A DNA stretch of 38,342 bases, taken from NCBI GenBank assembly GCA_002842145.1, contig PHCF01000063.1, forward strand, positions 1-38,342, in the 5' to 3' direction. Below are positions 3,550-37,948 of this stretch, piece after piece. The notes beneath the pieces were generated by a model, which worked only from the letters and a program-made list of their open reading frames with translations, had not been told where the DNA came from and ran no database searches. The DNA comes from Betaproteobacteria bacterium HGW-Betaproteobacteria-6. Its GTDB lineage: Bacteria; Pseudomonadota; Gammaproteobacteria; Burkholderiales; Rhodocyclaceae. Position 1 is the stretch's first letter; every line of letters begins with the position of its first letter. A program made the position numbers and the translations under genes.

Positions 3550-4932
3550 TTACGCGGCCCTCGGGTCGAATGCGTCGCGCACGGCGTCGGCGAACAGGTT
3601 GGCAGCGAGGACGAGAATGAACATGGCCGCGAAGGCGGCGACCAGCGACCACCAGACGACCGGTTCGCGGCCGAGTTCCATGCGGGCGTTGTTGATCATG
3701 GTGCCGAAGCTGGTCATCGTCGGATCGACGCCGATGCCGACATAGGACAGCACGGCTTCGGCCAGGACCAGACCGGAGAAATCCATGACCAGCGCGATGA
3801 TGACGATGTGCATGAGGTTGGGCAGGATGTGACGGACGATGATGCGCCAGCTCGACACGCCGAAGGCCTGCGCCGCCTGGATGTATTCGAGTTCGCGCAG
3901 CTTGAGCGTTTCGCCGCGCAGTAGGCGGCACAGCCCGGTCCAGCTCGTGATGCCGAGGATGAAGCAAAGCGCCAGCAGACGCAGGTCGGCGCGCTCGGCG
4001 GCGGTCGAGAACCACTCGGGATGGGTGTCGATGACAACCTGCATCATGAGCACGGCGGCGGCAATGAGCAGCACACCGGGGATCGAGTTGAGGACGGTGT
4101 AGAGGTACTGAATCAGGTCATCGACCCAGCCGCGGAAATAGCCGGCGACGATGCCGAGCAGCACGGCCATGGGCAGCATGACCAGCGTCGTGACAAGGCC
4201 GATGATCAGCCCGGTGCGCACGCTTTTGAGAATCTGGTATAGCACGTCCTGGCCGACCTTGTCGGTGCCGAAGACGTGGTAATGGCCGGACAGCCAGAAC
4301 AGCGGCACGGCAATCAGCAGGATAAGCAGCAGCGTGAGCAGCACGGCATCCCAAGCAAAAGCCGCTTCGCGCAATTTCATTTTTGGGCTTTTTTTCCGGT
4401 TGACCGTAGCAACCGCAGCAAACACGCCCAGCCACGCCACAAAGCTCAGCACGCCGGCCTTGAAGGCCGTGAAAGCGGCATCTTCGGCCACTTCGTCCTC
4501 GCGCTCGCCAAGATGCTTGCCGCCATGCTTGAGGCGCGGGTAGTCACGCACCGCCCCCTGCCCCGGCAGGTCGATGGTTTCCTTGGCGTAGAGCCGCGTG
4601 GCAAACGGCGCCGAGTAGGTCTTTTCGTTGCGCGAACGCAGCGGCGCAGCCAACGCATCAAGGACCGACAACACCTCGATCGCATACACCGCCTTCTGGC
4701 CTGCCTTGCTCTCCAGCTGCGCCCGGTAATGCAGCGAATCGAGCAGGCCGATCAGGACGAAGACGAGCAGCACGGTCGCCGAAGCCATGCCGACCCGGTT
4801 GGCGCCAACCCGGCGCCAAGCGGCGAGCAGCGGCGGGGTTTTCGCGATCAGCACGCCAACGCCCAACCCGGCCGCGACCAGCAACCAGATCAGCACATCG
4901 GACCAGAGCACGACGATCTGGAAGCCCATCAT
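3550..4932 (-). CDS. yejE: Peptide ABC transporter permease (YejE-like)
   Basis: This inner-membrane permease pairs with YejB and YejF for peptide uptake. The C-terminal half carries the binding-protein-dependent transport fold ([22 protein letters not shown], then an EAA loop near [22 protein letters not shown]). At 460 residues it is clearly longer than the roughly 340-residue E. coli protein as I recall it. The extra N-terminal ~120 residues hold two membrane segments and a charged loop. The start overlaps the yejB stop by 4 nt (ATGA), which implies translational coupling. Residues ~174-185 ([11 protein letters not shown]) are encoded by the antisense strand of a dispersed ~36-bp repeat (4375-4412), so the repeat has been tolerated in frame in a cytoplasmic linker. 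Confidence 0.92.
4375..4412 (+). repeat. Dispersed TTCCGGTTGACCG repeat, copy 1 (inside yejE, antisense)
   Basis: The block TTTTTGGGC then TTTTTTTCCGGTTGACCG and TAGCAA matches the other six copies in this window. It lies on the strand opposite to yejE and contributes coding sequence to it in reverse. It is the only copy clearly internal to a gene. Confidence 0.8.
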
Positions 4933-5906
4933 TCGAAACGTATCCGCGGATCGACCAGCGTGTAGGAAATATCGGTCAGGATCAGGCCGACGATGTAAAG
5001 CACCGAGCCGATGAAGACCATGGAGCGGACCACCGAGAAATCCTGCGCGTTGATCGCGTCGATGGTGTAACTGCCCAGGCCGGGGATGCCGAAAAACGAT
5101 TCAGTCAGCAGCGAGCCCATGAAGAGCATGGGAATGACGACAACGATACCGGTCAGGATGGGAATCAGCGCGTTGCGCAGGATGTGGCGGAAGAAGACCA
5201 GCGTCTCGGGCAGGCCCTTGGCGCGGGCGGTGCGCACGTAGTCCTTGCTGACTTCCTCGAGAAATATGGTCCGGTACCAGCGCGTCGATGAGCCAATGCC
5301 GGAAACGACACCAATCAACACGGGCAGAATCAGGAAACGCCACGCCTCCAGCCCGTCGCCGAACCCGGAAATCGGCACCAGCCGCCACACCTTGCTGATC
5401 AGGTATTGCCCGCCGATGATGTAGAACAGCCCGGAAATCGACATCGCCGCCACACAGAGCACGATACCCCAGAAATCGAAAGCCGTGGCGCGGAAGAAGG
5501 CCAGCGTCAGGGCAAACGTGATGGTCACGAACAGGCCGAGGATGAAGGTCGGCAAGGCGATGGCCAGCGACGGCAGCATTCGGTTGCCGATTTCGCGGGC
5601 GATGTCGCGGCCATCCTCGGCCCGGCCAAAATCGCCAACGAACATGCGCGCCGACTTCTCGAAGAAGATCGTGTCGGTCACGGTCGACACGCCATTTGCC
5701 GCGGAATTGAACATCAGCGGCTTGTCGTAACCACGCTCGACCTTCCACTTTTCGATGGCCTCCGGCGTCACCCGCTTGACCCCGAGCTGCATGCGCGCCA
5801 TGTCGTCCGGCGTATTGACGACGAAAAACAACGCAAAAGTAACGAGGTTCACCCCAATCAGGATGGGCAGCGCGTACAGCAGGCGGCGGACGATGTAGGC
5901 AAGCAT
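4929..5906 (-). CDS. yejB: Peptide ABC transporter permease (YejB-like)
   Basis: This is an inner-membrane permease of the DppB/OppB family, 325 residues. It begins with the typical MLAYIVRRLLYALPILIGVN membrane entry. A periplasmic region follows (FVGDFGRAEDGRDIAREI), then several membrane helices and the EAA loop near RTARAKGLPETLVFFRH. It starts the operon yejB-yejE-yejF. The solute-binding protein gene yejA, which usually precedes yejB, is not in the window: the next gene upstream is divergent and begins 155 bp away. A binding protein must therefore be encoded elsewhere. Confidence 0.93.
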   Translation of the reverse strand: MLAYIVRRLLYALPILIGVNLVTFALFFVVNTPDDMARMQLGVKRVTPEAIEKWKVERGYDKPLMFNSAANGVSTVTDTIFFEKSARMFVGDFGRAEDGRDIAREIGNRMLPSLAIALPTFILGLFVTITFALTLAFFRATAFDFWGIVLCVAAMSISGLFYIIGGQYLISKVWRLVPISGFGDGLEAWRFLILPVLIGVVSGIGSSTRWYRTIFLEEVSKDYVRTARAKGLPETLVFFRHILRNALIPILTGIVVVIPMLFMGSLLTESFFGIPGLGSYTIDAINAQDFSVVRSMVFIGSVLYIVGLILTDISYTLVDPRIRFE

Positions 5907-6060
5907 TGGCCCGATTATGCCAAGAGCCGGGAGACTTGTCCTTGCCGCGCCGGCTCCGCCAAGGAAAAGCCGCCAAGCTGGCCGCCCGCCGGCAGCCGAT
6001 ATGGCATCATCCGATCATGAAATTCCCACACTCGATTCCCGCCAGCAACGGAGCGGCACC

Positions 6061-7644
6061 ATGAGCGGCTGGGCGCTGCTCGGCGGTCTGGCCGGCGGCG
6101 TCGGCCTCTTCCTGCTCGGCATGGGGATGATGACCGACGGCCTGAAACTCGCCGCCGGACCGGCCCTTGAACGCGTCCTTGCCGAGTCGACAAAAACCCG
6201 CTGGCGCGGCCTCGCCTCCGGCATCATGGTCACTGCGCTGGTCCAATCGTCGAGCGCCGTGACCGTCGCCACCATCGGATTCATCAATGCCGGCCTGCTC
6301 AACCTGGCGCAGGCACTGTGGGTGCTGTTTGGCGCCAATGTCGGCACCACCATGACCGGCTGGCTGGTGGCCCTGGTTGGCCTCAAATTCAAGATCGAGG
6401 TACTCGCCCTGCCGCTCATCGGCGTCGGCATGATCCTCCGCCTGTCCGGTGCCGGCGCGCGGCGCGGCGCACTGGGCACGGCGCTGGCCGGCTTCGGCGT
6501 ACTCTTCCTCGGCATCGACATGCTCAAGGAAACCTTCTCCGGCCTGTCCACCGATTTCACGCTCCCGGCCGGGGACGGCATCGGCGACATCACCCTGCAA
6601 GTCGGCATCGGCATCCTGCTCACCATCCTCATGCAAAGCTCCAGCGCTTCGCTGGTCATCGCCCTGACCGCCGCCCAGGGCGGCCTGCTCACCACGCAGG
6701 GCGCTGCCGCCGTGGTCATCGGAGCCAACATCGGCACGACCGTAACGGCGCTCATCGCCGCCATCGGGGCCACACCCAATGCCAAACGGGCCGCCGCCGC
6801 CCACATCCTGTTCAATCTGATCACCGGCTTCGTCGCGCTGCTGCTGCTCCCCTGGCTGATCGACTTCCTTTCCGTGCTGCGCCAGTGGCTCGGCCTGGAC
6901 GAAGCACCAGCCGCCAAGCTGGCGCTCTTTCATAGCGTTTTCAACGTGCTCGGGGTCGTCCTTATCTGGCCTGTCGCCAACCGCATGACGCACTTCCTCG
7001 AAGCCCGCTTCAAGAGCGCCGAGGAAGACGAAGGGCGTCCGCGCCATCTCGACCGGAACGTACTGGCCGTACCGGCCCTGGCGCTCGACGCACTGAAGCG
7101 CGAAGTGCACCACCTCGGCGGACTCGCCATCTCGACCGTGCGGGCCGCCATCGAAGCGCCGCAAGGCCTGGCCCTGCCCTATCACAAGGAAGCGGTGGCC
7201 AGCCTCAACCTGGCCATCGCCGAATTCGTTACCCAGTTGCACCGCGTCGGTGCCGGCGACAGTGCCCGCCGTCTCCCGGTCATCCTGCGCCTGGCCCGTT
7301 ACTACGAAACCGCCACCGAACTGGCTGTTGAAGCATCGGCGGCAACCGGCGAATTCGTGGACCAAGTGCCGGACTCGCCAACCGCCGCCTTCGCCGGTGC
7401 GGCCAAGGCATTGCTCGACCAGGCCCAACCGAAGGCCAGCGAAACCAGCGGTCTGGAGCCAGCCATCACCGAAATGGAACGCGCCTATCAGGCCCTCAAG
7501 GCACATCTGCTGGCCGCCGGCGCGGCCGGCCAATTGCCGGTCACCGGGATGGATGCCCGGCTGCGCGCCGCCAGTTCGCTACGCCGCGCGCTCGAGCAAA
7601 CCGCCAAGGCGGCGCGCTTGCTCAACGAGGTTCAAGCCGACTGA
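6061..7644 (+). CDS. Na+/phosphate symporter family protein (NptA/PNaS, with PhoU-like tail)
   Basis: This is an inner-membrane sodium-coupled phosphate transporter or exporter. ATG 6061 is chosen because the protein then begins directly with a membrane segment (MSGWALLGGLAGGVGLFLLG) and has GGAG 8 nt upstream; the frame is open further upstream but without conserved character. The two inverted PNaS repeats are visible by their QSSS signatures, QSSSAVTVATIGF near residue 61 and QSSSASLVIALTAAQ near residue 195, each followed by GANVGTT/GANIGTT. The C-terminal ~190 residues are helical and soluble, resembling PhoU-like domains. It is divergent from yejB. The direction of phosphate transport cannot be read from sequence. 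Confidence 0.9.
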   Translation: MSGWALLGGLAGGVGLFLLGMGMMTDGLKLAAGPALERVLAESTKTRWRGLASGIMVTALVQSSSAVTVATIGFINAGLLNLAQALWVLFGANVGTTMTGWLVALVGLKFKIEVLALPLIGVGMILRLSGAGARRGALGTALAGFGVLFLGIDMLKETFSGLSTDFTLPAGDGIGDITLQVGIGILLTILMQSSSASLVIALTAAQGGLLTTQGAAAVVIGANIGTTVTALIAAIGATPNAKRAAAAHILFNLITGFVALLLLPWLIDFLSVLRQWLGLDEAPAAKLALFHSVFNVLGVVLIWPVANRMTHFLEARFKSAEEDEGRPRHLDRNVLAVPALALDALKREVHHLGGLAISTVRAAIEAPQGLALPYHKEAVASLNLAIAEFVTQLHRVGAGDSARRLPVILRLARYYETATELAVEASAATGEFVDQVPDSPTAAFAGAAKALLDQAQPKASETSGLEPAITEMERAYQALKAHLLAAGAAGQLPVTGMDARLRAASSLRRALEQTAKAARLLNEVQAD

Positions 7645-7659
7645 GTTGCGACCGCCGGG

Positions 7660-7866: not shown

Positions 7867-7891
7867 GAGTCAGATTCTGCAATGGTTTCCG

Positions 7892-7922: not shown

Positions 7923-8011
7923 TTACATTTTTTAATGCTTCAAACTGCCACACACGGGTAAAGTGCGCGGCGACGAATTCAAGCAGGCGCATGTCGAAAG
8001 TCGCGCACAAC

Positions 8012-8034: not shown

Positions 8035-8046
8035 TGATTTTAGGTG

Positions 8047-8135
<89 letters not shown>

Positions 8136-8157
8136 GCAGCGGCGCGACGTCGGCTCA

Positions 8158-9662: not shown

Positions 9663-10997
<1,335 letters not shown>

Positions 10998-11129
10998 TTA
11001 TACGCGAGGGACCGGGCAAGCCGGGCTGGGCCGGCCGGCGCATTTGATCCCCTGGCCAGCCAAAATTAGGTACCATCGACGGCACAAGAAAACACATCCG
11101 ACCTTGCCCGCGCATTTTCGGAGACTGCA

Positions 11130-13298: not shown

Positions 13299-13848
13299 TC
13301 AGCGACCAGAATCGCCTCAGCAACCAGCCGACGAGCACCAGAAAAACAACGAGCAGCCCGAGAAAGACCAGCGGCGAAGCGAGCATGGCCCACAGCCCGC
13401 CGAGCACCATGCCCTCCTCGCCGAACGAGGCGACCCAGTTCGAGAACGGCTCGGGCGAGGTGTTGATGGCCAGCCGGCTGCCGGCCTTGGCGAAATGCGT
13501 ACCGGCCGTGATCGTGCCGCCGATCAGCCCTGCCGCCACCGCCCACGCCGGATCGACCTCGCCCATGGCAAACGCCGCGAGCAAGGCACCGGCCGGGATG
13601 CGGATGAAGGTCTGGAAGCTATCCCAGAGCGAATCGAAAGCGGGAATCTTGTCGGCGATCAATTCGGCAAAAGCCATCAGCCCGGCAACCCCGATGACCA
13701 GCGGGTTCTGCAACACAGACAGCGTTTCCGGCAGTTGCAGGTAGCCGAGGGTGCTCAACAGGCCGGCCAGAAAAACCACCAGATACAGCCGCAGGCCGCT
13801 GGCCCAAGCCAGGCCGGCAGACAGGGCGATGGTCTGGAGCATGTCCAT
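13258..13848 (-). CDS. DUF4126 family membrane protein
   Basis: This 196-residue inner-membrane protein has about five hydrophobic segments. The family motif region SGLRLYLVVFLAGLLS lies near the N-terminus and LIGGTITAGTHFAKAGSRLA in the middle. The function of DUF4126 is not known. Its start codon overlaps the rarA stop by 1 nt, so it is probably co-transcribed and translationally coupled with rarA. Its 3' end overlaps the convergent nosR end by 41 bp. Confidence 0.82.
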   Translation of the reverse strand: MDMLQTIALSAGLAWASGLRLYLVVFLAGLLSTLGYLQLPETLSVLQNPLVIGVAGLMAFAELIADKIPAFDSLWDSFQTFIRIPAGALLAAFAMGEVDPAWAVAAGLIGGTITAGTHFAKAGSRLAINTSPEPFSNWVASFGEEGMVLGGLWAMLASPLVFLGLLVVFLVLVGWLLRRFWSLISRLIRRPSRPSA

Positions 13849-15167
13849 TATTTCTTGCCGGCCTTGCGATCCAGTTCCCGCAAGTGCGCCAGCTTCTGGC
13901 CGATCTGGCCTTCCAGCCCGCGCGGCGTCGGTGCGTACCAGCCCGGCTCGGGCATGCCGTCCGGCAGGTAGGTTTCGCCGGCGGCGTAGGCTTCCGGCTC
14001 GTCGTGGGCGTAGCGGTAAGCGTGGCCGTGGCCCAGTTCCTTCATGAGCTTGGTCGGCGCGTTGCGCAGGTGGTTGGGCACCGGCCGCGAGCCGTCCTGC
14101 TTCACGTAGGCGCGGGCGGCGTTGTAGGCCATGTAGCCAGCGTTCGATTTGGCCGCGACGGCGAGATAGATCACCGCCTGGGCGAGCGCCAGTTCGCCCT
14201 CCGGCGAGCCGAGGCGTTCGTAGGTTTCAGCCGCATCGTTGGCGATCTGCATGGCGCGCGGATCGGCCAGGCCGATGTCTTCCCAGGCCATGCGGACGAT
14301 GCGCCGGGCGAGGTAGCGGGCATCGGCGCCGCCGTCGAGCATGCGGGTCAGCCAGTAGAGCGCGCCGTCCGGATTCGAGCCGCGCACCGATTTATGCAGG
14401 GCCGAGATCTGGTCGTAGAAAGCGTCGCCGCCCTTGTCGAAACGGCGCAGGCTTTGCGCCATCGTTTTTTCGATAAATTCGCCGTCGACCGTAGCAAGGC
14501 CGGCCGTGCGGGCTGCCGTGCGGACTTGTTCAAGGAGGTTGAGCAAACGCCGCGCATCGCCGTCGGCCAGGCCAATCAGACGTTCGCGGGCGGCTGGCTC
14601 AAAGCTCAGGTCGGCCAGCGCCTGGACACAGGCACGGTCGAAAAGCTGGCCCATCTCGGCTTCGTCGAGCGACTTGAGGACATAGACCGAAGCGCGCGAC
14701 AGCAAGGCGGAATTGAGTTCGAACGAGGGGTTCTCGGTGGTCGCACCGATGAAGGTGAGCAAGCCGGATTCGACGAAAGGCAGGAAACCGTCCTGCTGCG
14801 CCTTGTTGAAACGGTGAATTTCATCGACGAAGAGGATGGTCCGTTTGCCCTGCGCCCGCCACATTTCCGCCTGCGCCACGGCTTCGCGCACCTCCTTGAT
14901 GCCGGAAAACACCGCCGACAGGGCGATGAACTCGCATTTGAACTGCGTCGCCATCATCCGCGCCAGCGTCGTCTTGCCCACCCCCGGCGGCCCCCAGAGG
15001 ATCATCGAATGCGGCTGGCCGGATTCAAAAGCCAGGCGCAGCGGCTTGCCCGGCCCGAGCAGGTGCTGCTGGCCGATCACGTCATCGGGCGTTTGCGGGC
15101 GCAATTGCTCGGCCAGCGGGGCGTGCCGGGCTTGCGCCCCAGCATTTGAAAACAGGTCTTCGGACAT
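13848..15167 (-). CDS. rarA: Replication-associated recombination protein A (RarA/MgsA)
   Basis: This AAA+ ATPase of the clamp-loader clade acts at stalled replication forks, where it displaces or loads proteins at DNA ends. It has 439 residues. Walker A is [15 protein letters not shown] near residue 58 and Walker B is [16 protein letters not shown] near 110. A sensor 1 region [18 protein letters not shown] and the C-terminal tetramerisation region ([22 protein letters not shown], seen as its halves) follow. Only 3 nt separate its start codon from the intI stop codon upstream, so the native rarA promoter may have been replaced or may lie within intI. Confidence 0.95.
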
Positions 15168-21743: not shown

Positions 21744-21790
21744 GCCTTGCTCAAACGGCTATTCGGCCGGGTAGATCAGCCGTGGTCGCA

Positions 21791-21829
21791 TTGCTACGGT
21801 CAACCGGAAAAAATGGCCAATTTTGAAAT
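21791..21829 (-). repeat. Dispersed repeat, copy 3 (21743-21898 gap)
   Basis: On the minus strand it reads ATTTCAAAATTGGCCA, TTTTTTCCGGTTGACCG and TAGCAA. It lies between the membrane-protein gene and the SRPBCC gene, antisense to both. Read in its own frame it would code for the same FFRLTV string as copies 5 and 6. Confidence 0.82.
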
Positions 21830-21897: not shown

Positions 21898-22344
21898 ATG
21901 AGCACAGGAACGGTCACGCTACACCGCATTCTGCGGGCAGACCCGGAGCGCATCTATCGGGCTTTCCTGAACGCCGACGCCATGGCCAAATGGCTGCCGC
22001 CCTATGGGTTTACCTGCCGGGTCGAGCATCTGGATGCGGTGGTCGGCGGCTCTTTCCGGATGTCGTTCACCAACTTTACGACGGGCAACGGCCATTCGTT
22101 TGGCGGCGAATACCTTGAACTGCTACCCAACGAAAAGATTCGCTACACCGACAAATTCGACGACCCGAACCTGCCCGGCGAAATGCAGACGACGGTGAGC
22201 CTCAAAGCTGTCGCCTGCGGCAGCGAGTTGAGCATCGTGCAGGAAGGCATCCCGGCGGTCATCCCGACCGAGATGTGCTACCTCGGCTGGCAGGAATCGC
22301 TCGAGCAGTTGGCCAGGCTGGTCGAGCCGAATATTCCGGACTGA
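21898..22344 (+). CDS. SRPBCC / AHSA1-type protein
   Basis: This 148-residue cytosolic protein has the START-like helix-grip fold, which binds hydrophobic ligands in a deep cavity. The N-terminus TVTLHRILRADPERIYRAF and the following DAMAKWLPPYGFTCRVEHLD are typical of the AHSA1 (activator of Hsp90 homologue) clade. The C-terminal helix is GWQESLEQLARLVEP. AAGGAGAAGGG precedes the start. In bacteria such genes often sit beside ArsR-type regulators. It lies end-to-end with the ars operon here (22344/22345) but convergent, so a direct link is not shown. Confidence 0.88.
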   Translation: MSTGTVTLHRILRADPERIYRAFLNADAMAKWLPPYGFTCRVEHLDAVVGGSFRMSFTNFTTGNGHSFGGEYLELLPNEKIRYTDKFDDPNLPGEMQTTVSLKAVACGSELSIVQEGIPAVIPTEMCYLGWQESLEQLARLVEPNIPD

Positions 22345-25063: not shown

Positions 25064-25477
25064 TTACAGGCCCAGTGCGGCTCGTACGGCAGGGATCAGG
25101 CGGGCGCGAATATCGTCCCGAACGGCAATAAAACTGTCCAGCGGCTCGCCGTGCGGGTCGTGGAACGGCAGGTGAATGCGCGGCACCGGGCGCGGGAAGA
25201 CCGGGCAGGTTTCGCGCGCGTTGTCGCAAACGCTGACCACGAGGTCGATGGGCTCGCCCATCACGGCTTCGACATCCTTCGGGTACAGCCCCTCGGTCGG
25301 CAAGCCGGCCAGCTTCAAGGCTTCGATGGCGCCATCGGCCACCTTGGGTTGCGGCCGGGTGCCGGCCGACATGGCGCGCACCAGGCCGGCCAAGTCATGA
25401 TTGAGAATGGCCTCGCCCATCTGCGAGCGACAGGAGTTGCCGGTGCACAGCACGAGGACGGTCTTGAGTGTCGACAT
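25064..25477 (-). CDS. arsC: Arsenate reductase ArsC (thioredoxin-coupled, LMW-phosphatase type)
   Basis: This cytosolic enzyme reduces arsenate to arsenite for export by ACR3. ATG 25477 overlaps the arsR stop by 1 nt and gives 137 residues; upstream in-frame sequence is the arsR coding strand. The CX5R phosphatase loop is CTGNSCRSQ (C11, R17). C84 and C91 (VVSVCDNARETCPVFP) match the disulfide cascade of the thioredoxin-dependent enzymes as in Staphylococcus. The DPHGEPLDSF region near the C-terminus carries the catalytic Asp. Confidence 0.95.
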   Translation of the reverse strand: MSTLKTVLVLCTGNSCRSQMGEAILNHDLAGLVRAMSAGTRPQPKVADGAIEALKLAGLPTEGLYPKDVEAVMGEPIDLVVSVCDNARETCPVFPRPVPRIHLPFHDPHGEPLDSFIAVRDDIRARLIPAVRAALGL

Positions 25478-25833
25478 CAGGCGGTCTTTCGAATTTTGGC
25501 GCGACGCTTTTCGGTGGTGTCGCAGCACGTGGTTTTCGGCAGGCAGGCTTCGCCTTGGCAGCAGTTGCTGGTCAGGAAGGCGATCAGTTCATCCATCGTG
25601 GCGAAATTGGCCGAGTAGTGGATGAAGCGGCTTTCCCGTTCGCCGGCAATCAGCCCGACCCGGCTCAAATGGGCCAGGTGGAAGGACAGTGTAGCCGGCG
25701 CCATGCCCAGTTGTTCGCCTATGGCGCTGGCGTTGATGCCGGCCGGCCCGGCCTCGACCAGCAGGCGGAAAATGGCCAATCGGGATTCATGACCGAGGGC
25801 AGCAAGAAGTTCAGCGGCATTTAACGTTTCCAT
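25477..25833 (-). CDS. arsR: ArsR family arsenite-responsive repressor
   Basis: This 118-residue winged-helix repressor has recognition helix ALGHESRLAIFRLL, then APATLSFHLAHLSRVGLI. There is no CVC motif in the helix. Instead the C-terminus carries C91, C92, C97, C103 and C104 (NCCQGEACLPKTTCCDTT), fitting the ArsR type whose As(III) site uses C-terminal cysteines. First gene of arsR-arsC-acr3-permease-thioredoxin. No Shine-Dalgarno sequence precedes its ATG; the -10-like TATAAT is only about 18 nt upstream. Confidence 0.94.
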   Translation of the reverse strand: METLNAAELLAALGHESRLAIFRLLVEAGPAGINASAIGEQLGMAPATLSFHLAHLSRVGLIAGERESRFIHYSANFATMDELIAFLTSNCCQGEACLPKTTCCDTTEKRRAKIRKTA

Positions 25834-25856: not shown

Positions 25857-25891
25857 AAGCGAAGTCCACACCCGATTTCGGGCGAAAGCCA

Positions 25892-25926
25892 TTGCTACGG
25901 TCGACCGTAAAATATAGCAAATTCGT
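25892..25926 (-). repeat. Dispersed repeat, copy 4 (upstream of arsR, sense)
   Basis: This is the most diverged copy. On the minus strand it reads TTTGCTATATTTTACGG, TCGACCG and TAGCAAT. The core TACGGTCGACCGTA is a 14-bp perfect palindrome. It precedes arsR by about 60 nt in the same orientation. Confidence 0.7.
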
Positions 25927-26036
25927 CAATTATAAAATTCCATTTTCATAACAAGCAAAAACCAAGCTGATAATCGACATCAATATGAAATATTCCAACG
26001 CTAATCTGCGGTCATTCCTGTACTCGGGGCTCCCCA

Positions 26037-29982: not shown

Positions 29983-30300
29983 TATGTGATGCTCCTGGCT
30001 GGCGAGAGTACGAGTTAGGGTCAATTTTCAAGGGGACAGCATCCGGAGACCGGCCGGCTACGCCATACACAACCCGCGCATGCCGGCCAGGACAACCAGA
30101 TCGCTTTCCCCCTGCCCGCCCATGATGACGGTCGTTTATTACAGATAGATGTGTGTCAGGCCGGCCGACAACTAGTACTTTCGGACTAGCGGCAGGCCGG
30201 CATGACCGATTTTTGCTCTCTGTTTGGACATCCGGCAGAACTTAAGAAAGGTTTAAGCTACGTTGAATACACTGCCAACAACCTGTTACGGATGAACCCC
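29983..30300. other. 318-bp divergent intergenic region (PhoX-like / efflux)
   Basis: It holds the promoters of two divergent transcripts and a symmetric dyad (see next feature). No clear pho box or -24/-12 site could be read on either strand. CTTAAGAAAGGTTTAAGC near 30241-30258 may be part of the efflux promoter. Confidence 0.5.
30160..30201. promoter_or_regulatory. 42-bp symmetric dyad, possible operator
   Basis: Outer arms GCCGGCC (30160-30166) and GGCCGGC (30195-30201) and inner arms CTAGT (30172-30176) and ACTAG (30185-30189) share the same centre at 30180.5, with equal 5-nt spacers. Two nested inverted repeats suggest a dimer-of-dimers operator or a hairpin. Confidence 0.5.
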
Positions 30301-31383
30301 ATGTCGCGTCGATATTCCATTTTTGGCCTTTTTTTCCTGTTGACCGTAGTACCCCATCTCCAGGCTCAGGAAAGCCAGTTGACGCTGCAGCCGGCACAAC
30401 TCAAGGCGCTGGGCATCGAAACAGGCGTCGCCGGCGAGATGGCGGGCGGCCGCGCTGGCAGCTACCCGGCGCAGGTGCGCGTCCCGAACGAACAGATGCG
30501 CGTCGTTGCCGCGCCGGTTGGCGGCATGGTCGAGATGCTCGCCGTGGCGCCAGGCTCGACGGTGAAGCGTGGCCAGGTCGTCGCCCATCTGAGCAGCCAG
30601 CAGGCGCTTGAACTCCAGCGCGATGCGCTGCAAGCCGGTAGCCAGTCCGCCCTCATGCAACAAAATCTGAAACGCGACGAACAGTTGTTCGCCGAAGGCC
30701 TCATTGCCGAAAGCCGGCTGCAGGCTACCCGCGCCGCCGCCGCGCAAGCCAGCGCACAAGCCAGTGAGCGGCGTCAGGGCCTGGCTCTGGCCGGTGGCAC
30801 GGCAGGCAAGCTCGGCGGAAAATTGGCGCTGACCGCGCCGATCGACGGCGTCGTCCTCGAACAGGGCGCCCAGCTCGGCCAGCGCGTCGAAACCTCGGCG
30901 CTGATTTACCGCATCGCCAAACTCAGCCCGTTGTGGCTGGAAATCCAGGCGCCGGTCACCATCGCCGCCACGCTGCGCGAAGGCAGCCCGGTGAAGATCG
31001 CCAACAGCGAGGTGACGGGCAAGCTGATCGCCATCGGCCGCGCGGTCGATCCGGCCAGCCAGACCGTCCTGCTCCGCGCAGCGGTGGTCAAGGGGGCCGA
31101 AACGCTGCGCCCCGGCCAGGTCATCGAAGTCGAAGTCGCCACCCCGCCCGGCCAGCAGCAACAACTGCCCGCCACGGCGCTGGCCCGCAACGAGGGCAAG
31201 ACCCTGGCCTTCATCCAGACTTCCAGCGACGCCAAGGGTGTCGTCTTTACCGTCCGCCCGGTCCGCATTGTCAGCCAGGGCGGCGACAGCGTTACGGTCG
31301 ACGGCGTCAAGGCCGGTGAGCGGGTCGCCATCAAGGGCGTGTCCGGCCTCAAGGCCATGCTGACCGGTGTTGGTGCAGAATAA
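30301..31383 (+). CDS. RND efflux periplasmic adaptor (CzcB/CusB-type)
   Basis: This is the membrane-fusion subunit joining the RND pump to the outer-membrane channel. ATG 30301 gives 360 residues with a signal peptide; ATG 30292 is an alternative. The signal peptide core FGLFFLLTV is encoded by repeat copy 5. The mature protein shows the lipoyl-like half VVAAPVGGMVEMLAVAPGST, an alpha-hairpin (LELQRDALQAGSQSALMQQN) and the matching half LTAPIDGVVLEQGAQLG, then a beta-barrel. No Met-rich or His-rich metal-binding N-terminus is seen. It is the first gene of a four-gene operon; its stop overlaps the pump start by 1 nt. Confidence 0.92.
   Translation: MSRRYSIFGLFFLLTVVPHLQAQESQLTLQPAQLKALGIETGVAGEMAGGRAGSYPAQVRVPNEQMRVVAAPVGGMVEMLAVAPGSTVKRGQVVAHLSSQQALELQRDALQAGSQSALMQQNLKRDEQLFAEGLIAESRLQATRAAAAQASAQASERRQGLALAGGTAGKLGGKLALTAPIDGVVLEQGAQLGQRVETSALIYRIAKLSPLWLEIQAPVTIAATLREGSPVKIANSEVTGKLIAIGRAVDPASQTVLLRAAVVKGAETLRPGQVIEVEVATPPGQQQQLPATALARNEGKTLAFIQTSSDAKGVVFTVRPVRIVSQGGDSVTVDGVKAGERVAIKGVSGLKAMLTGVGAE
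30315..30350 (+). repeat. Dispersed repeat, copy 5 (signal peptide of the efflux adaptor)
   Basis: It reads TTCCATTTTTGGCC, TTTTTTTCCTGTTGACCG and TAGTA. It lies in the coding strand and frame, giving the residues SIFGLFFLLTVV of the signal peptide. Confidence 0.82.
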
Positions 31384-34300
31384 TGCTTGACGCCCTGATC
31401 CGTTTTTCGCTGACCCAGCGCCTGCTCGTCCTGGTCCTCACCGTCATGCTCGTCGGCGCCGGCGTCCAGGCCTTCCTCGGCCTGCCCATCGACGCCTTTC
31501 CGGATGTCTCGACGACGCAGGTCAAGATCATCCTGAAAGCCCCCGGCATGACGCCGGAAGAGGTTGAAACGCGCCTCGCCGTGCCGGTCGAGCAGGAGTT
31601 GCTCGGCATCCCGCACCAGAAGCTGCTGCGCTCGGTGTCGAAGTACGCGCTGACCGACATCACCCTCGACTTCGAGGATGGCACCGACATCTACTGGGCC
31701 CGCCAGCAGGTCGGCGAACGCCTCGCCGCGGCGATGGGCAACCTGCCGCCTGGGGCTACCGGCGGCATGGCGCCGATCACCACGCCGCTCGGCGAAATGT
31801 TCATGTTCACCATCGAGGGCGACCTGTCGCTGGCCGAAAAGCGCAATCTGCTCGACTGGGTGATCCGCCCGCAACTGCGCACCGTGCCCGGCGTCGCCGA
31901 CGTCAATAGCCTGGGTGGCGAAGTACGCACCTTCGAGGTGGTGCCCAACCCACAAAGCCTGGCCGCCCGCGGCCTGGCCCTCAAGGATCTGCAGACTGTC
32001 CTCGAAGCCAACAACCGCAACGACGGCGCCGGCCGCCTCAACGACGGCGAGGAATCGTTGCTGGTCCGCGCCGAAGGGGCGATTGCCACGGTCGACGACG
32101 TCAAAGCCATCGTTTTGCAGGCGAAAGACGGCACCGTCGTGCGCGTTGCCGACGTCGCCGATGTCCACCTCGGCGCCCTCACCCGCTACGGCGCGGTCAC
32201 CAAGAGCGGCCAGGGCGAGGCGGTGCAAGGTCTGGTTCTCGGCCTGCGTGGCGCCAATGCGCAGAGCGTGGTGGCCGGCGTCAAGGCGCGGCTGGCCGAA
32301 GTGGCGACGACCCTGCCGCCCGGCGTCACCATCGAGCCTTTCTACGACCGCAGCAATCTGGTCGGCCGCGCTGTCGGCACCGTCTCCAAGGCGCTGCTCG
32401 AAGCCATCGTCCTCGTCGTCCTGCTCCTGCTGGCCTTCCTCGGCAACCTGCGCGCCGCGCTGGTCGTCGCCCTCATGCTGCCGCTTTCGGCGCTCGCCAC
32501 CTTCATCCTGATGCGCATGTACGGACTGTCGGCCAACCTGATGAGTCTCGGCGGTCTGGCCATCGCCATCGGCATGCTGGTCGACGCCGCCGTCGTCGTC
32601 GTCGAAAACGTCGAGAGCCAGCTGGCCGACGCCCAGGAAAACCTGCCGACGCTGCACCTGATCTACCGGGCGGCGCGCGAAGTCGCCTCGCCGGTGACCT
32701 CGGGCATCATCATCATCATCATCGTCTTCCTGCCGCTGCTCACGCTGCAAGGGCTGGAGGGCAAGATGTTCGGGCCGGTGGCGCTGACCATCGTCTTCGC
32801 GCTGGCCTCGTCCCTGCTGCTGTCGCTGACCGTAGTGCCGGTGCTCGCCTCCTACCTGATCAAGCGCGGCATGCACCACGAACCATGGCTGGTCAGAAAG
32901 CTGGCAGCGATCTACGACAAGACCCTGAGCACTGCACTGGCCAACAGCCGCACCTTCATGATCGCCGCGACCATTGCGCTGGCTGCGGCGGCCGGCGCCT
33001 TCCTGCTGCTCGGCAAGAGCTTCATGCCGACCATGGATGAAGGCGACATGATCATGCAGCTCGAAAAACTGCCGTCCATCGGCCTCGACCAGACCATCGC
33101 CATCGACAGCCGCGTCCAGCAGGCCGTCCTGGCGCAGGTTCCGGAAATCAAGGCGATCGTCGCCCGCGCCGGTTCCGACGAACTCGGCCTCGATCCGATG
33201 GGCCTGAACCAGACCGATACCTTCATGGTGCTGCAGCCACGCGAAACCTGGCGTAATCCCGACCCGGCCTGGCTGGCCGACCAGTTGCGCGCCGTGATGG
33301 CCGATTTCCCCGGCATCGGCTACGCCTTCACGCAGCCGATCGACATGCGCGTCTCGGAAATGCTGACGGGCGTGCGCGGCGATCTGGCCATCAAGATTTT
33401 CGGCCCGGACCTCGCCACGCTGAACCGCCTGTCGAATGAAATCGTCGCCGCCGTCAAGAAGGTGCCGGGCGCCGAAGATACGTTCACGCTCAAGAACGAT
33501 GGCGTGCAGTACCTCAAGATCGCCGTCGACCGGCTGGCCGCCGGCCGCATGGGGCTCAACGTCGATGACATCCAGAACGATCTGAAAGCCCTGCTCGAAG
33601 GCCGTAATGTCGGCGTCGTCATCGAACAGGGGCGGCGTGTGCCGGTCATCCTGCGCGGCCCGGTCAGCCTGCTCAACTCGCCGGCCGATTTCGAAGCCCT
33701 GCGCCTCTCCGTGCCGGGCGGCGGCAGCGTGCCGCTGGCCAGCGTCGCCAGGATCGAGCGCATCGACGGGCCGGTCAAGGTCGACCGCGAAAATGCCCAG
33801 CGTTACGTCGTCGTCCAGTCCAATGTCCGCGACCGCGATCTGGTCGGCTTCGTCGACGATGCCAAGGCCGCTGTCGGCCGCGACGTCAAGCTGCCCGATG
33901 GCTACCGGCTGGCCTGGGGCGGCCAGTTCGAAAACCAGCAACGGGCAGCAGCCCGCCTCATGGTCGTCGTCCCGGTCGCGCTGGCATTGATCTTCTTCCT
34001 GCTTTTCTCGACCTTCCGCTCGGTGCGCCAGGCCTTGCTCGTCCTTTCCAACATTCCCTTTGCCATGATCGGCGGCGTGTTCGGGCTGCTTATTTCCGGC
34101 GAATACCTGTCGGTGCCCGCCTCGGTCGGATTCATCGCCCTGCTCGGCATTGCCGTTCTCAACGGCGTCGTCATGGTCACCTATTTCAACCAGTTGCTGG
34201 CCCGCGGCATGGCGGTCGGCGAAGTCGTCGTCGAAGGCGCCAAGCGCCGCCTGCGGCCGGTCATGATGACCGCCAGCATTGCCGCCTTCGGTCTCGTGCC

Positions 34301-34472
34301 CATGCTCTTCGCCACCGGCCCCGGCTCGGAAGTACAGCGCCCGCTGGCCATCGTCGTCATCGGCGGCCTGCTCACCTCGACGGCGCTGACCCTCGTCCTG
34401 CTGCCCATCCTGTTCCGCCGCTTCGGTGTCAAACCGACCGTCTCCTTTACCGAGGTCCGCCACCATGGCTGA
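31383..34472 (+). CDS. Heavy-metal efflux RND pump (CusA/CzcA family)
   Basis: This 1029-residue inner-membrane proton antiporter has twelve predicted helices and two large periplasmic loops. It opens with MLDALIRFSLTQRLLVLVL and has PIDAFPDVSTTQVKI, typical of the HME class. TM4 is GGLAIAIGMLVDAAVVVVEN, with Asp ~401 and Glu ~408 in the proton relay. The first Asp of the CzcA-type relay is Ala here, as in CusA-like pumps, so monovalent or broad metal specificity is possible. The metal cannot be named. Start overlaps the adaptor stop; end overlaps the next gene by 8 nt. Confidence 0.94.
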   Translation: MLDALIRFSLTQRLLVLVLTVMLVGAGVQAFLGLPIDAFPDVSTTQVKIILKAPGMTPEEVETRLAVPVEQELLGIPHQKLLRSVSKYALTDITLDFEDGTDIYWARQQVGERLAAAMGNLPPGATGGMAPITTPLGEMFMFTIEGDLSLAEKRNLLDWVIRPQLRTVPGVADVNSLGGEVRTFEVVPNPQSLAARGLALKDLQTVLEANNRNDGAGRLNDGEESLLVRAEGAIATVDDVKAIVLQAKDGTVVRVADVADVHLGALTRYGAVTKSGQGEAVQGLVLGLRGANAQSVVAGVKARLAEVATTLPPGVTIEPFYDRSNLVGRAVGTVSKALLEAIVLVVLLLLAFLGNLRAALVVALMLPLSALATFILMRMYGLSANLMSLGGLAIAIGMLVDAAVVVVENVESQLADAQENLPTLHLIYRAAREVASPVTSGIIIIIIVFLPLLTLQGLEGKMFGPVALTIVFALASSLLLSLTVVPVLASYLIKRGMHHEPWLVRKLAAIYDKTLSTALANSRTFMIAATIALAAAAGAFLLLGKSFMPTMDEGDMIMQLEKLPSIGLDQTIAIDSRVQQAVLAQVPEIKAIVARAGSDELGLDPMGLNQTDTFMVLQPRETWRNPDPAWLADQLRAVMADFPGIGYAFTQPIDMRVSEMLTGVRGDLAIKIFGPDLATLNRLSNEIVAAVKKVPGAEDTFTLKNDGVQYLKIAVDRLAAGRMGLNVDDIQNDLKALLEGRNVGVVIEQGRRVPVILRGPVSLLNSPADFEALRLSVPGGGSVPLASVARIERIDGPVKVDRENAQRYVVVQSNVRDRDLVGFVDDAKAAVGRDVKLPDGYRLAWGGQFENQQRAAARLMVVVPVALALIFFLLFSTFRSVRQALLVLSNIPFAMIGGVFGLLISGEYLSVPASVGFIALLGIAVLNGVVMVTYFNQLLARGMAVGEVVVEGAKRRLRPVMMTASIAAFGLVPMLFATGPGSEVQRPLAIVVIGGLLTSTALTLVLLPILFRRFGVKPTVSFTEVRHHG

Positions 34473-34767
34473 TGTCCTGCTTTCCCTGACCATGCCCAAC
34501 GACGTTGCCCAGCACGTCGAAGACCTGCTGCTCTCCCGCCCCGATCTCGTGCGCGGTTTCACGGCCAGCCTGGCCGAAGGCCATGGCGCCGTCGTCCCGC
34601 TGGTCGAACCGGCGGAACTGGTCAGCGGCCACTCGCCGCGCCAGCAGATTCGCCTGGCCGGAACGGAAGAAGCGATGCGTGCCGTGCTCGAGCTGATCAA
34701 GGCCGATCTACCCAAAGCCAATATTTTCTACTGGCTGGTGCCAATCATCGAGATGGGGCGTTTATGA
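34465..34767 (+). CDS. DUF3240 family protein
   Basis: This 100-residue cytosolic protein has ferredoxin-like beta-alpha-beta character (DVLLSLTMPNDVAQHVEDLL ... QQIRLAGTEEAMRAVLELIK ... IFYWLVPIIEMGRL). DUF3240 genes occur regularly in heavy-metal RND operons, and a PII-like sensing role has been suggested from the fold; none is established here. It overlaps both neighbours (8 nt with the pump, 4 nt ATGA with the channel), which implies tightly coupled translation. Confidence 0.88.
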   Translation: MADVLLSLTMPNDVAQHVEDLLLSRPDLVRGFTASLAEGHGAVVPLVEPAELVSGHSPRQQIRLAGTEEAMRAVLELIKADLPKANIFYWLVPIIEMGRL

Positions 34768-36041
34768 AATTTGGCCTTCTTTTCCGGTTGACCGTGGGAT
34801 TGTCCCTCGGCGGTATTGGCGGCACCGGTTTTGCTGCCGACGCCCTCGCCAACCTGCCGCCGACCGAAGTCGTCACCCGCGTTCTCCAGTCCAACCTCTC
34901 GGTGCAGGCCGCTGCGGGCCAGATTCGTGTCGAGGAAGCCAACCGCAGCCGTCTCGAAGCCGGCCATTACGAATGGAACGTCCGCCTTGGCGGCCAGCAG
35001 CGCCGGAGCAAACCGGCAGCCGGCCCGGACGAGCGTTTCAACGAATGGAATGCGGCCATCGAGCGCCCGCTGCGCCTGCCCGGCAAGGCCGGCGTCGACA
35101 GCGAAATCGGTGCTGCCGGCGTCTCGCTGGCCGAAACTGCACGTGGCGATGCGCTGCACGAAACCAGCCGCAACCTGCTCAAATCCTGGTTCGTCTGGCT
35201 CAAGGAAAGCGCCAGCGCCACCCAATGGACCGAGCAACTCGCCCTGCTCGACAAGCAGGCGAAAGCCATTGCGCGTCGCCAGCAACTCGGCGATGCGGCG
35301 CGGGTTGAGGCCATCCAGGCCGAAGCTGCCCTGGCCCAGGCCGAAGCCGCCCTGGCCCAAGCCCGGGTCCGCCAGCAAACCGCCGGCGAAGACCTGCGCC
35401 GCCGCTACCCCGGCCTGCCGGTCGTTGCCCAGAACACGATTGCCGAGCCGACGCCGATCGACGGCAACGAAGCCGAGTGGATCAACACCATCCTCGAACA
35501 CAGCCACGAACTCGAGCTCGCCCGCGGCGAAACCCGGAGGGCGCAACTTCTGGCCGGCCGCGCCAGCCGCGACCGCCTGCCCGACCCGACCTTCGGCCTG
35601 CACGTTTCCAACGAACGGGCCGGCGAGGACCAGGTGTTCGGCGCCTACATCAGCATCCCGCTGCCCGGCGGCGCCCGCCGTGCCGGCTCCGACGCGGCGC
35701 TGGCCCAGGCCGACGTGGCCGGTCGGCGCGAAGCATTGACCACGCAAAAGATCACCGCCGAAGCGGCCATGCTCTACCAGTCTGCGACGGCCGCCTTATC
35801 GACCTGGCAGGCCAGCCGCAGCGCCGCCGAACGCCTCGACCGGGCTGCCGAGATGACGGCGCGCGCCTACCAGCTCGGCGAAGGCAGCCTCAACGACCTG
35901 CTTGCCGCCCGCCGTCTGGCCAACGACGCCCGGCTGGCCGCCCGCCTGAGCCAGCTTGACGCACTGGAACTGCGCTACCGCCTGCTGCTCGACGCCCACC
36001 AATTGTGGGTCATGGACGAAGAAAAGCACCCCGGCGATTGA
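34764..36041 (+). CDS. RND efflux outer-membrane channel (TolC/CzcC family)
   Basis: This 425-residue outer-membrane factor forms the trimeric exit duct of the pump. It has long coiled-coil hairpins in two repeats (VEAIQAEAALAQAEAALAQA; ERLDRAAEMTARAYQLGEGS), as in CzcC/CusC. ATG 34764 overlaps the DUF3240 stop. The first 11 residues (MKFGLLFRLTVG) are encoded by repeat copy 6, which thus supplies the basic-hydrophobic start of the signal peptide. Cleavage is expected near GGTGFAADA. Last gene of the operon. Confidence 0.93.
   Translation: MKFGLLFRLTVGLSLGGIGGTGFAADALANLPPTEVVTRVLQSNLSVQAAAGQIRVEEANRSRLEAGHYEWNVRLGGQQRRSKPAAGPDERFNEWNAAIERPLRLPGKAGVDSEIGAAGVSLAETARGDALHETSRNLLKSWFVWLKESASATQWTEQLALLDKQAKAIARRQQLGDAARVEAIQAEAALAQAEAALAQARVRQQTAGEDLRRRYPGLPVVAQNTIAEPTPIDGNEAEWINTILEHSHELELARGETRRAQLLAGRASRDRLPDPTFGLHVSNERAGEDQVFGAYISIPLPGGARRAGSDAALAQADVAGRREALTTQKITAEAAMLYQSATAALSTWQASRSAAERLDRAAEMTARAYQLGEGSLNDLLAARRLANDARLAARLSQLDALELRYRLLLDAHQLWVMDEEKHPGD
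34766..34799 (+). repeat. Dispersed repeat, copy 6 (signal peptide of the efflux channel)
   Basis: It reads GAAATTTGGCC, TTCTTTTCCGGTTGACCG and TGGGA. It is in the coding strand and in the same reading frame as copy 5, giving KFGLLFRLTVG. Confidence 0.85.
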
Positions 36042-36099
36042 CGCTTTCCCGGCGCAGCGACGTATCATGGTCAGACTCCACACCGGATGAGGCCACACC

Positions 36100-36666
36100 A
36101 TGACACTGCATCTGCGTCCGCTCGTCAGCCTGCTCAGCGGGCTTTTCGCCATCGCTGCGGCGATGCCGGCGACGGCCTGGGAACTGGCCGGCAGCAAGCT
36201 CATCACGGTGCACACCCGGGACGGCCAGTCGATTGCCATTGGCCATGTAGACTTCACGCCCAAGGGTGAGCACAGCAGCTTCAAACTCAATCTCGATCAC
36301 GCCAAATTGAAGGATTTCTTCCTTTCCATGAAGGAATTCAAGTGTCTCGAAGGCGAGGAAATCCATTGCCACGTGCCCTACCCCTACGCCAATCCGGGCA
36401 CGGTGAGCCGCACCGACCTGCGCTGGCTGGAGCATTCGTTGCTGTTTCTCTACAAGCAGCCCAAGGATTTCGGGGCCCGGCTGTGGAATGGCCTTTACTA
36501 CGAGATGGCGCTGACTGAAAAAGGTCTCGTCGGCACGCCGCAAGCCGTCGATCTCGCCCTGATCGGCGCACCGCCGGCCGATACCTCGATCCCGCCCTAC
36601 GGCCCCGCTGAGCGCAGCGAAATTTCGCCCGGCTCGCGCTGGATTCGCAGCTTGAGCATCGAGTAG
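36100..36666 (+). CDS. Conserved exported protein, unknown (188 aa)
   Basis: This 188-residue protein has a signal peptide (residues ~8-26, SLLSGLFAIAAAMPATAWE). The mature part starts with strands (SKLITVHTRDGQSIAIGHVD), then a segment with three acidic/Cys features (KEFKCLEGEEIHCHVPYPY), whose two Cys may form a disulfide. It lies 58 bp after the efflux channel and could belong to the same transcript. No family is recognised. Confidence 0.8.
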   Translation: MTLHLRPLVSLLSGLFAIAAAMPATAWELAGSKLITVHTRDGQSIAIGHVDFTPKGEHSSFKLNLDHAKLKDFFLSMKEFKCLEGEEIHCHVPYPYANPGTVSRTDLRWLEHSLLFLYKQPKDFGARLWNGLYYEMALTEKGLVGTPQAVDLALIGAPPADTSIPPYGPAERSEISPGSRWIRSLSIE

Positions 36667-36693
36667 GCGAGGGTCAATCCGGAGCAGAAACGC

Positions 36694-36906
36694 TCAGTTT
36701 TCGACCTTCTGCCAGCCCTTCGCCTGCATGCAGGCGTGCATCCGGCGCACGCTGGCCTTGGTGACCACCCCGTCGGCTGTGGTGTAAACCTGCTGCTTGC
36801 AGAATATCTCGTCACGCGTGTACTCACCGTCGAGCGCCCCGCGTTTCTCCCAGTGCCACGACGAACAGCCTGCCAGGCCAATGAAGGCGATCATCAGTAA
36901 TTTCAT
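36694..36906 (-). CDS. Small lipoprotein, unknown (70 aa)
   Basis: ATG 36906 gives a 70-residue protein with a short signal sequence ending in lipobox LAGC. The mature part has three further Cys/aromatic features (SWHWEKRGALDGEY, RDEIFCKQQVYTT, HACMQAKGWQKVE). It is convergent with the previous gene, 27 nt apart. Function unknown. Earlier in-frame codons exist but would place the lipobox internally. Confidence 0.75.
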   Translation of the reverse strand: MKLLMIAFIGLAGCSSWHWEKRGALDGEYTRDEIFCKQQVYTTADGVVTKASVRRMHACMQAKGWQKVEN

Positions 36907-37160
36907 GGCGCAAATTCTACGCTGCTCGTCGCCGAACACGCCATCTGGCTGCGCGAACTGACAACAGATAGCCGCGCTTTTCGTTTCTCCTGAACAACGG
37001 ATTGGTTGCCAGATATTTGTCCAATAATCTCTCCGGACATGGAACCAGCTGACCGCCACACACTCAAAACCTTGCCGGTATATGCCATTAGACTTTTCCT
37101 GCCCGGCACTCTGGCATTTATTGACGAATGGCTGGCATTCTTGAATAGGGGATGACATCG

Positions 37161-37508
37161 ATGATCTACAAAGGAAGTTGTCACTGCGGCAAGGTAGCGT
37201 TCGAACTGGAAGGTGAGATCGAGGGTGCCGTTGCCTGCAATTGCTCGATCTGTTCGCGCAAGGGTTCACTGCTCTGGTTCCTGCCGCGCGAGAAACTGAC
37301 CTTGCTGACACCGGAAGACGCAGCCAGCACCTACACATTCAACAAGCACGTCATCCAGCACCGCTTCTGCCCGAGCTGCGGCATTCATCCCTACGCAGAA
37401 GGCGTCGATCCCAAGGGGAGGAACATGGCAGCGATCAATCTGCGCTGTATCGAAGGTCTCGATCTGACATCCATTCCGGTCGCTGAATTCGATGGTCGAT
37501 CCATCTAA
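37161..37508 (+). CDS. GFA / CENP-V-type zinc-binding protein
   Basis: This 115-residue protein belongs to the glutathione-dependent formaldehyde-activating (GFA) fold, with zinc ligands in KGSCHCGKVAFELEG, ACNCSICSRKG and RFCPSCGIHPYAEG. Members bind structural and catalytic zinc, but many are not formaldehyde-activating, so the substrate is open. ATG 37161 is chosen because GGGG lies at good spacing; ATG 37152 is an alternative three codons earlier. The VOC gene follows 14 bp downstream, probably in one transcript. Confidence 0.88.
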   Translation: MIYKGSCHCGKVAFELEGEIEGAVACNCSICSRKGSLLWFLPREKLTLLTPEDAASTYTFNKHVIQHRFCPSCGIHPYAEGVDPKGRNMAAINLRCIEGLDLTSIPVAEFDGRSI

Positions 37509-37522
37509 ACACGGAGGTAATC

Positions 37523-37894
37523 ATGAACAATCCGGTAGGCTGGTTTGAAATTTACATCCAGGAAATGGAGCGTGCGAAAGCTTTCTATCAGGCAGTTTTC
37601 GACGTCGAACTGACCCGGCTGGAAACGCCGCCAGACATCGAGATGTGGGCCTTCCCGATGCTGCCTGATGGCAAAGGGGCGTCAGGCTCCTTGGTCAAAC
37701 TGGCCGGCTGCGGTTCAGGTGACAACAGCGTTCTGGTCTATTTCAGTTGTGCCGATTGCGCCGTGCAGGCGGCCAAAGCCGTCAAGGCCGGGGGCAAGAT
37801 TCACAAGCAAAAAATGGCCATCGGACAGTACGGCTTTATCGCGCTGGTCGTGGACACCGAAGGAACGATGATCGGCCTGCATTCAATGCAGTAG
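37523..37894 (+). CDS. VOC (glyoxalase/dioxygenase-fold) family protein
   Basis: This 123-residue protein has a single VOC unit with paired beta-alpha-beta-beta-beta modules: VGWFEIYIQEMERAKAFYQA at the N-terminus and ALVVDTEGTMIGLHSMQ at the end. VOC proteins bind a metal and catalyse diverse reactions; related single-unit proteins are of unknown substrate. AGGTAATC-type sequence (GGAGGTAATC) precedes the ATG. It is paired with the GFA gene. Confidence 0.88.
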   Translation: MNNPVGWFEIYIQEMERAKAFYQAVFDVELTRLETPPDIEMWAFPMLPDGKGASGSLVKLAGCGSGDNSVLVYFSCADCAVQAAKAVKAGGKIHKQKMAIGQYGFIALVVDTEGTMIGLHSMQ

Positions 37895-37910
37895 GCGAGC
37901 CTCCGCGACC

Positions 37911-37948
37911 TTTCAATTTTGGCTGTTTTTCCCGGTTGACCGTGGGAA
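37911..37948 (+). repeat. Dispersed repeat, copy 7 (between VOC and lolA)
   Basis: It reads TTTCAATTTTGGC, TGTTTTTCCCGGTTGACCG and TGGGAA. It lies between two convergent genes, in no coding frame of either. Confidence 0.82.

Follow-up and report, generated by a model that had tools for sequence, protein, structure and literature searches.

DNA uptake sequences have been known from two bacterial families, both mainly of animal-associated bacteria. In the passages cited here, a 2025 paper still names Pasteurellaceae and Neisseriaceae as the sole families in which they are known (PMC12616744). According to the portions cited, the uptake signal sequences (USS) of Pasteurellaceae consist of a core and two A/T segments, the first of which starts with A and ends with T; they prefer non-coding DNA, originate by mutation and form dialects with a fixed inner core (PMC1626085, PMC12616744). 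They come in a Hin type, AAGTGCGGT, and an Apl type, ACAAGCGGT. The DNA uptake sequences (DUS) of Neisseriaceae are continuous motifs that reach about 13 bases at most and lack A/T tracts (PMC12616744), and their dialects keep an invariant inner core (PMC3630211), again in the parts of these papers cited. Dedicated receptors are the minor pilin ComP in Neisseriaceae and, as proposed, ComN in Pasteurellaceae.

Here we analyze a motif repeated in a 38,342-nucleotide contig (PHCF01000063.1, positions 1 to 38,342; the window) of Betaproteobacteria bacterium HGW-Betaproteobacteria-6 (assembly GCA_002842145.1, labeled G000 among the genomes below). The motif is, on the sequence evidence, most likely a DNA uptake sequence, a reading that lies outside the three options of an initial annotation of the window (a small mobile element, a regulator or nucleoid-protein site, or a chromosome-structuring motif). 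Judged by its sequence, its architecture is of the Pasteurellaceae USS type, a core with two phased A/T segments, and its core is new. Most likely it belongs to an uptake-sequence system independent of the two known ones, a third case whose nearest structural counterpart is the Pasteurellaceae USS. This interpretation draws on the copy number, restriction to one genus, graded scores, origin by substitution, scarcity of close pairs, inserts empty of the motif, dialects and USS-like features.

The motif and its distribution

The weight matrix used here was built from 435.5 kb of the genome to which the window belongs (the window and 20 stretches of contigs with listed matches, a sample in which density is slightly biased). 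The repeated unit is a sharply bounded 41-bp motif, ATTTCAATTTTGGCCTTTTTTTCCGGTTGACCGTAGCAATC, with the core GTYGACCG(Y)RG and, on the same side of it, two A/T tracts centered 10 bp apart. Its information resides in GTYGACCG, followed by T/C, R, G, N and A, and in both A/T tracts, where T is replaceable by A at the 5′ side and kept at the 3′ side. Scores are graded without a break from the full consensus to the core only, the core being kept longest. The 435.5 kb contain 113 sites above 18 bits; third-order Markov sequence and the reversed sequence contain none above 3 bits. In the window, the initial annotation had described seven copies of a ~36-bp repeat. The family is real, and the coordinates and strands of all seven were recovered; under the weight matrix the repeat measures 41 bp, and the window contains nine copies, two of them weaker ones beyond the original set.

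Comparison with USS reveals several shared features. In the reverse-complement orientation of the motif, the two A/T segments likewise lie on one side of the core, 3′ to it, and in many copies the first opens with A and closes with T. As with USS, copies occur within genes and are commoner in non-coding DNA, an origin by mutation is indicated, and dialects share a fixed inner core. Both motifs also contain CGGT, which may be chance. Unlike in USS, the core in this orientation, CYACGGTCRAC, is partly palindromic and the unit is longer, at 41 bp, while samples from motif-rich species contain about one copy per 3–4 kb, compared with about one per kilobase for USS. With DUS the motif has in common a Betaproteobacterial host, which sets it apart from the Pasteurellaceae USS, as well as hundreds to thousands of copies and an inner core that is invariant across dialects. 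However, its core is unrelated to that of DUS, and it has A/T tracts.

The 19-bp form TTTTTCCGGTYGACCGTRG, with at most two mismatches, has 534 matches (261 on the plus and 273 on the minus strand) in the 4.3-Mb draft of the window's genome, bearing out the earlier extrapolation to hundreds of copies per genome. Few copies, or as many as in shuffled DNA, had been named as the outcome that would speak against a family; the reversed pattern has 0 matches against these 534, and the Markov comparison was 113 against 0. For counts across genomes we used a strict pattern, WWWTTNNNNGTYGACCGYRGNA, which is present in 69 of the 76 genomes of the genus, inferred to be Dechloromonas/Azonexus, at 0 to 527 matches per genome. 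Its reversed control has no match in 75 of the 76 and one in the remaining genome, and 0 or 1 in the wider sample. An order-wide sample of 399 genomes includes six of this genus; nine of the other 393 match once each, and within that sample none of the seven genomes from other genera of the same family does. A longer pattern located 90 stretches in named genomes, and the 80 listed are all metagenome-assembled and labeled Dechloromonas, Azonexus, Azonexaceae, Rhodocyclaceae or broader; NCBI taxonomy places Dechloromonas within Azonexaceae, Rhodocyclales. Three IMG/VR viral contigs also carry the pattern, which would be informative only with their hosts known. In 400 kb of the complete genome G073, 101 sites score above 14 bits, from which about a thousand sites can be extrapolated for a motif-rich genome.

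Six separate motif models (G000, G098, G065, G068, G034 and G002) all keep GTYGACCG and differ at +4, +10, +11, around −1 to +1 and in the outer TTTC. For G065, G068 and partly G034, the stretches were chosen near listed matches, and their composition, not their density, was used. Among the 34 genomes that have 20 or more strict sites, T makes up at most 25% at position +10 in 18, at least 75% in 11 and an intermediate fraction in five, so that the position is near-fixed in 29 of 34. In G065 the consensus core is fully palindromic, CACGGTCGACCGTG. That hundreds of scattered sites change together suggests one trans-acting reader.

Two local patterns were seen in other genomes. In the motif-poor genome G067, six of the seven strict copies lie in one 76-kb stretch (G067:C1:1477439-1553908), all on one strand, and this stretch was perhaps imported from a motif-rich species. 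In G031, TTTTTACGGTCGACCGTAA matches on both strands at C2:245436-245454 and C7:89408-89426; it is nearly a full palindrome and may be another protein's site.

Origin, placement and spacing of the copies

Forty genomes of the genus were found to contain the region of the window, and the alignments draw on orthologous stretches from 15 relatives. The motif is spanned without a gap in 146 alignment rows, in which the ortholog scores below 10 bits in 75, at 10–22 bits in 15 and at 22 bits or above in 56. The 75 ungapped motif-poor rows derive from 14 source sites, mostly weak coding ones, which we grouped into six loci. At these six alignable loci the motif, to judge from the aligned sequences, arose by point substitution in place. 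The flanks of strong intergenic copies mostly fail to align. At window position 2940, relatives encode LDLLAKLQAERGMG, compared with another 14-residue peptide in motif-bearing species (translated by eye), suggesting that the motif was assembled in place by both synonymous and non-synonymous changes. The motif at G003_L173:10618 is missing, with no gap, from five relatives whose flank identities are 0.80–0.90, which indicates that G003 gained the site. One locus provides two strong sites, at G002_L172:3843 (59.8 bits) and at window position 30314 (53.5 bits), both of which align to G035 without a gap. The same gap test, as applied by Redfield and colleagues, showed in the part cited that USSs are not insertions (PMC1626085).

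Coding and intergenic positions were assigned with a simple gene caller written for this analysis. Of the 113 sites in the G000 sample, 68 are coding, 10 lie over a gene edge and 35 are intergenic, in DNA that is 85% coding. Of the 51 strong sites, those scoring 50 bits or more, 25 are intergenic, with 15% of the DNA non-coding, compared with 0 of 15 sites below 30 bits. Likewise, 25 of 45 strong sites in G073 are intergenic (13% non-coding, 87% coding), compared with one of 22 weak sites. The motif therefore prefers non-coding DNA in both genomes, yet many copies lie inside genes. There it encodes peptides such as FGLFFRLTV in signal-peptide-like stretches and another peptide on the opposite strand. 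Coding sites run with and against the gene in 31 and 37 cases in G000 and in 23 and 32 in G073, and position inside genes did not differ significantly between the orientations (31 versus 37 sites, p = 0.14).

Intergenic copies are found alike between convergent, divergent and co-directional genes, the last with nine sense and eight antisense sites, and have no sense preference. The initial annotation had placed four window copies in sense at or just before a gene start (serS, arsR, an efflux adaptor and an efflux channel). This holds for those four and does not generalize, as only 12 of the 68 coding sites in the G000 sample are within 90 bp of a called start and the orientation counts (31/37 in genes, 9/8 between them) are mixed. 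Since copies occupy convergent and divergent as well as sense and antisense places, a promoter or regulatory element was dropped as the principal interpretation.

Close neighbors are scarce. Spacings below 700 bp number 21 across six pooled samples, compared with about 61 expected. In G000 there are six (21.6 ± 3.9 under random placement), and in the five other stretches 4, 2, 1, 4 and 4 (expected 16.3, 5.5, 1.2, 8.2 and 8.7). The coefficient of variation (CV) of spacing in G000, 0.68, is below the random value of 0.95 ± 0.08.

The inserts examined that split comEC, which encodes the DNA-uptake channel, contain no copies. In 10 of the 76 genus genomes (G002, G086, G090, G005, G070, G018 with two inserts, G099, G060, G029 and G064), comEC is interrupted on one contig by inserts ranging from about 2 to 64 kb, mostly near residues 245–270 or about 685. 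The G002 insert opens with a large serine recombinase and the G060 insert encodes a TniB-type protein; different elements seem to target this same gene. Seven inserts were scanned with the G000 dialect matrix. The two large ones, in G002 (C33:109612-143253, 33.6 kb) and G086 (C1:2720419-2763722, 43.3 kb), hold 0 sites in 76.9 kb, compared with 12 and 13 in flanks of similar length (25 in 85.1 kb). Five other inserts also hold none, but their flanks are too short or the sites too few for comparison. DNA with a GC content below 0.58 has 11 sites in 36 bins, compared with 114 in 181.

Transformation genes and competing explanations

A comEC match is present in 75 of the 76 genus genomes, a ComEA-type HHH domain in all 24 genomes searched and a GspH/FimT-type minor pilin of the type IV pilus in all 10 searched, with minor-pilin operons around the gene in the loci read. 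All features testable by sequence agree with an uptake sequence, though spacing and machinery do so only with reservations. Open-licence PubMed Central (PMC) literature, judged from listings, yielded no uptake sequence for Dechloromonas, Azonexus or Rhodocyclales.

In the proposed mechanism, the motif repeated through the chromosome would be bound by a receptor on the pilus of conspecific cells, giving naturally competent cells a preference for DNA of their own kind in uptake and recombination. This receptor, at the cell surface, would read the core, while bending or melting of the DNA at the pore would be due to the A/T tracts. Fragments with better matches would be taken up and recombined more often, spreading the motif, and a shift in receptor preference would drag hundreds of sites to a new dialect. 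Uptake-sequence self-recognition has probably evolved a third time, in environmental Azonexaceae, with a long motif whose core is partly palindromic and with dialects that would partition gene exchange; the mobile elements that repeatedly split comEC would be the other side of the conflict.

Were this so, an unrelated third motif, carried by free-living bacteria of water and soil, would imply that uptake tagging evolves repeatedly and would offer an independent case for asking why uptake sequences evolve. More than 30 genomes with graded copy number and clear dialects would allow receptor and motif to be matched by co-variation. Natural competence would be predicted in organisms of wastewater and perchlorate reduction, the dialects would partition gene exchange among Dechloromonas-like bacteria, and the motif would be a ready DNA tag for transforming them.

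Several findings weigh against an uptake sequence. The core is partly palindromic, unlike that of USS or DUS, and close inverted pairs of the motif are almost absent, whereas in H. influenzae 17% of USS10 lie within 30 bp of another, in the passage cited (PMC7811141). In addition to the ungapped rows, small gaps in the motif occur in 85 alignment rows, another 162 fail to cover it and a 25-base gap is present in one, so that few strong intergenic copies inform on the mode of origin. Spacing in the first 400 kb of G073 has a CV of 1.16, not below random, owing to two deserts without the motif, of 39.9 and 17.8 kb, with a GC content of 0.57. The same 400 kb carry 65 plus-strand and 36 minus-strand sites (p = 0.005), and 3.84–3.94 Mb leans the same way (19/11), although among five stretches of three genomes tested only the 0–400 kb stretch deviates. 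Natural transformation in Dechloromonas was not found in open-licence PMC literature judged by titles.

The state of comEC also counts against uptake. In the window's own genome comEC (G000:C145:64223-66483) is in two frames with a short gap, which is either a frameshift or an assembly error; it is also frameshifted in the G035 draft. It is split in the motif-rich genomes G002 and G086, and whole in G016, G080, G094, G013 and G004, which have no motif. Strict counts did not differ with comEC state (split, n = 10, median 3; full-length, n = 54, median 14.5; p = 0.53; 12 partial or frameshifted genomes left out). Recent losses with USS still in place are described for Pasteurellaceae in the portion cited (PMC1626085). 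A similarly recent loss would reconcile motif number with comEC state and is not evidence for uptake.

The longer of the two G073 deserts, a 40-kb motif-free stretch of this motif-rich genome (G073:C1:338147-378038), is probably an island.

Among the alternatives, an intracellular chromosome-organizing or -marking protein (nucleoid-associated, nucleoid-occlusion-like or a global regulator), binding the palindromic core as a dimer with the A/T tracts bending the DNA, is unlikely but the most credible. The core is near-palindromic, and fully so in some copies and in the G065 consensus, close neighbors are avoided, and such a protein could be the species-wide reader that dialects need. Nevertheless, such sites would not usually keep 42 bits across 41 bp in hundreds of copies, both within genes and outside them, copy number falls from more than 500 to 0 between congeners, and all intergenic arrangements are used. 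The family of the initial annotation stands as high-copy and genome-wide, while the regulator, nucleoid or structuring site suggested for it fits badly with the absence of the motif from 77 kb of two inserts, the lack of consistent strand polarity and of sense preference at gene starts, and the dialects. A replication-polar motif like the FtsK-orienting polar sequences (KOPS) was dropped because polarity is not consistent and the G073 sequence holds both strands; in G065, the strand order of 52 of 54 sites listed gives 30 runs versus 26.4 expected. Very unlikely, in our estimate, is a recombination or repair signal (Chi-like, or spread by biased gene conversion), read after DNA entry and not at the cell surface. 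It would likewise predict spread by substitution, core-genome bias and species-wide dialects; Chi-type signals, however, are short and strand-polar, and the present motif is long and without consistent polarity.

The least credible alternative, with hardly any probability left to it, is a small mobile or transposase-copied element similar to repetitive extragenic palindromes (REP) or miniature inverted-repeat transposable elements (MITE), the first option of the initial annotation. The high copy number and sharp edges suit it, as does the row with the 25-base gap at the site (G002 versus G016), and the GTAG or GTGG beside the palindrome resembles the REP tetranucleotide. REP and bacterial interspersed mosaic elements (BIME), with their REP-associated tyrosine transposase (RAYT), are also high-copy short repeats. 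The present motif differs from them in its ungapped origin in place at six loci, its many graded, partial coding copies, its absence from inserts and its lack of a stable hairpin. Folding of the seven copies compared with shuffles gave z from −1.86 to +0.59, six being no better and one weakly better, and a hairpin was dropped on this ground. The RAYT that had been suggested as support for mobility fares no better: Y1-type (RAYT family) transposases occur in 15 of 30 genomes searched; 7 of the 13 searched genomes with 100 or more strict sites do not have them, and four of the five searched genomes without strict sites do. This link was abandoned too.

Copies in the window

Copy 1 (4374..4414, plus strand, 63.2 bits) is inside an ABC-permease gene (3550-4932), antisense to it; copy 3 (21789..21829, minus strand, 62.2 bits) is in the stretch before an AHSA1-domain gene (21898-22344); and copy 7 (37910..37950, plus strand, 55.8 bits) is just 3′ of a glyoxalase-like gene (37523-37894).

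The other four of the original seven lie near gene starts. Copy 4 (25890..25930, minus strand, 36.5 bits) is upstream of an ArsR-like helix-turn-helix gene (25477-25833, minus strand) and contains the palindrome TACGGTCGACCGTA. Copy 5 (30314..30354, plus strand, 53.5 bits) is in frame near the 5′ end of an HlyD-type adaptor gene (30202-31383), and is the copy that aligns to G035 without a gap. Copy 6 (34762..34802, plus strand, 49.6 bits) spans the start codon of an OEP channel gene (34764-36041). Copy 2 (10958..10998, minus strand, 59.4 bits) occupies the 5′ untranslated stretch of serS (9663-10946, minus strand) and has the palindromic core CGGTCGACCG; the cores of copies 2 and 4 are as first described. 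By eye, a TATAAT-like box (window 10958-11002) lies across the 5′ edge of copy 2 ahead of serS, which would put the copy in the serS transcript leader.

Both weaker copies are inside coding genes. That at 2940..2980 (minus strand, 30.7 bits) is in a conserved gene (1573-3549, minus strand), with motif-poor relatives aligning without a gap, and that at 14459..14499 (plus strand, 32.7 bits) is in a gene at 13848-15167 (minus strand), with ungapped alignment to several motif-poor relatives.

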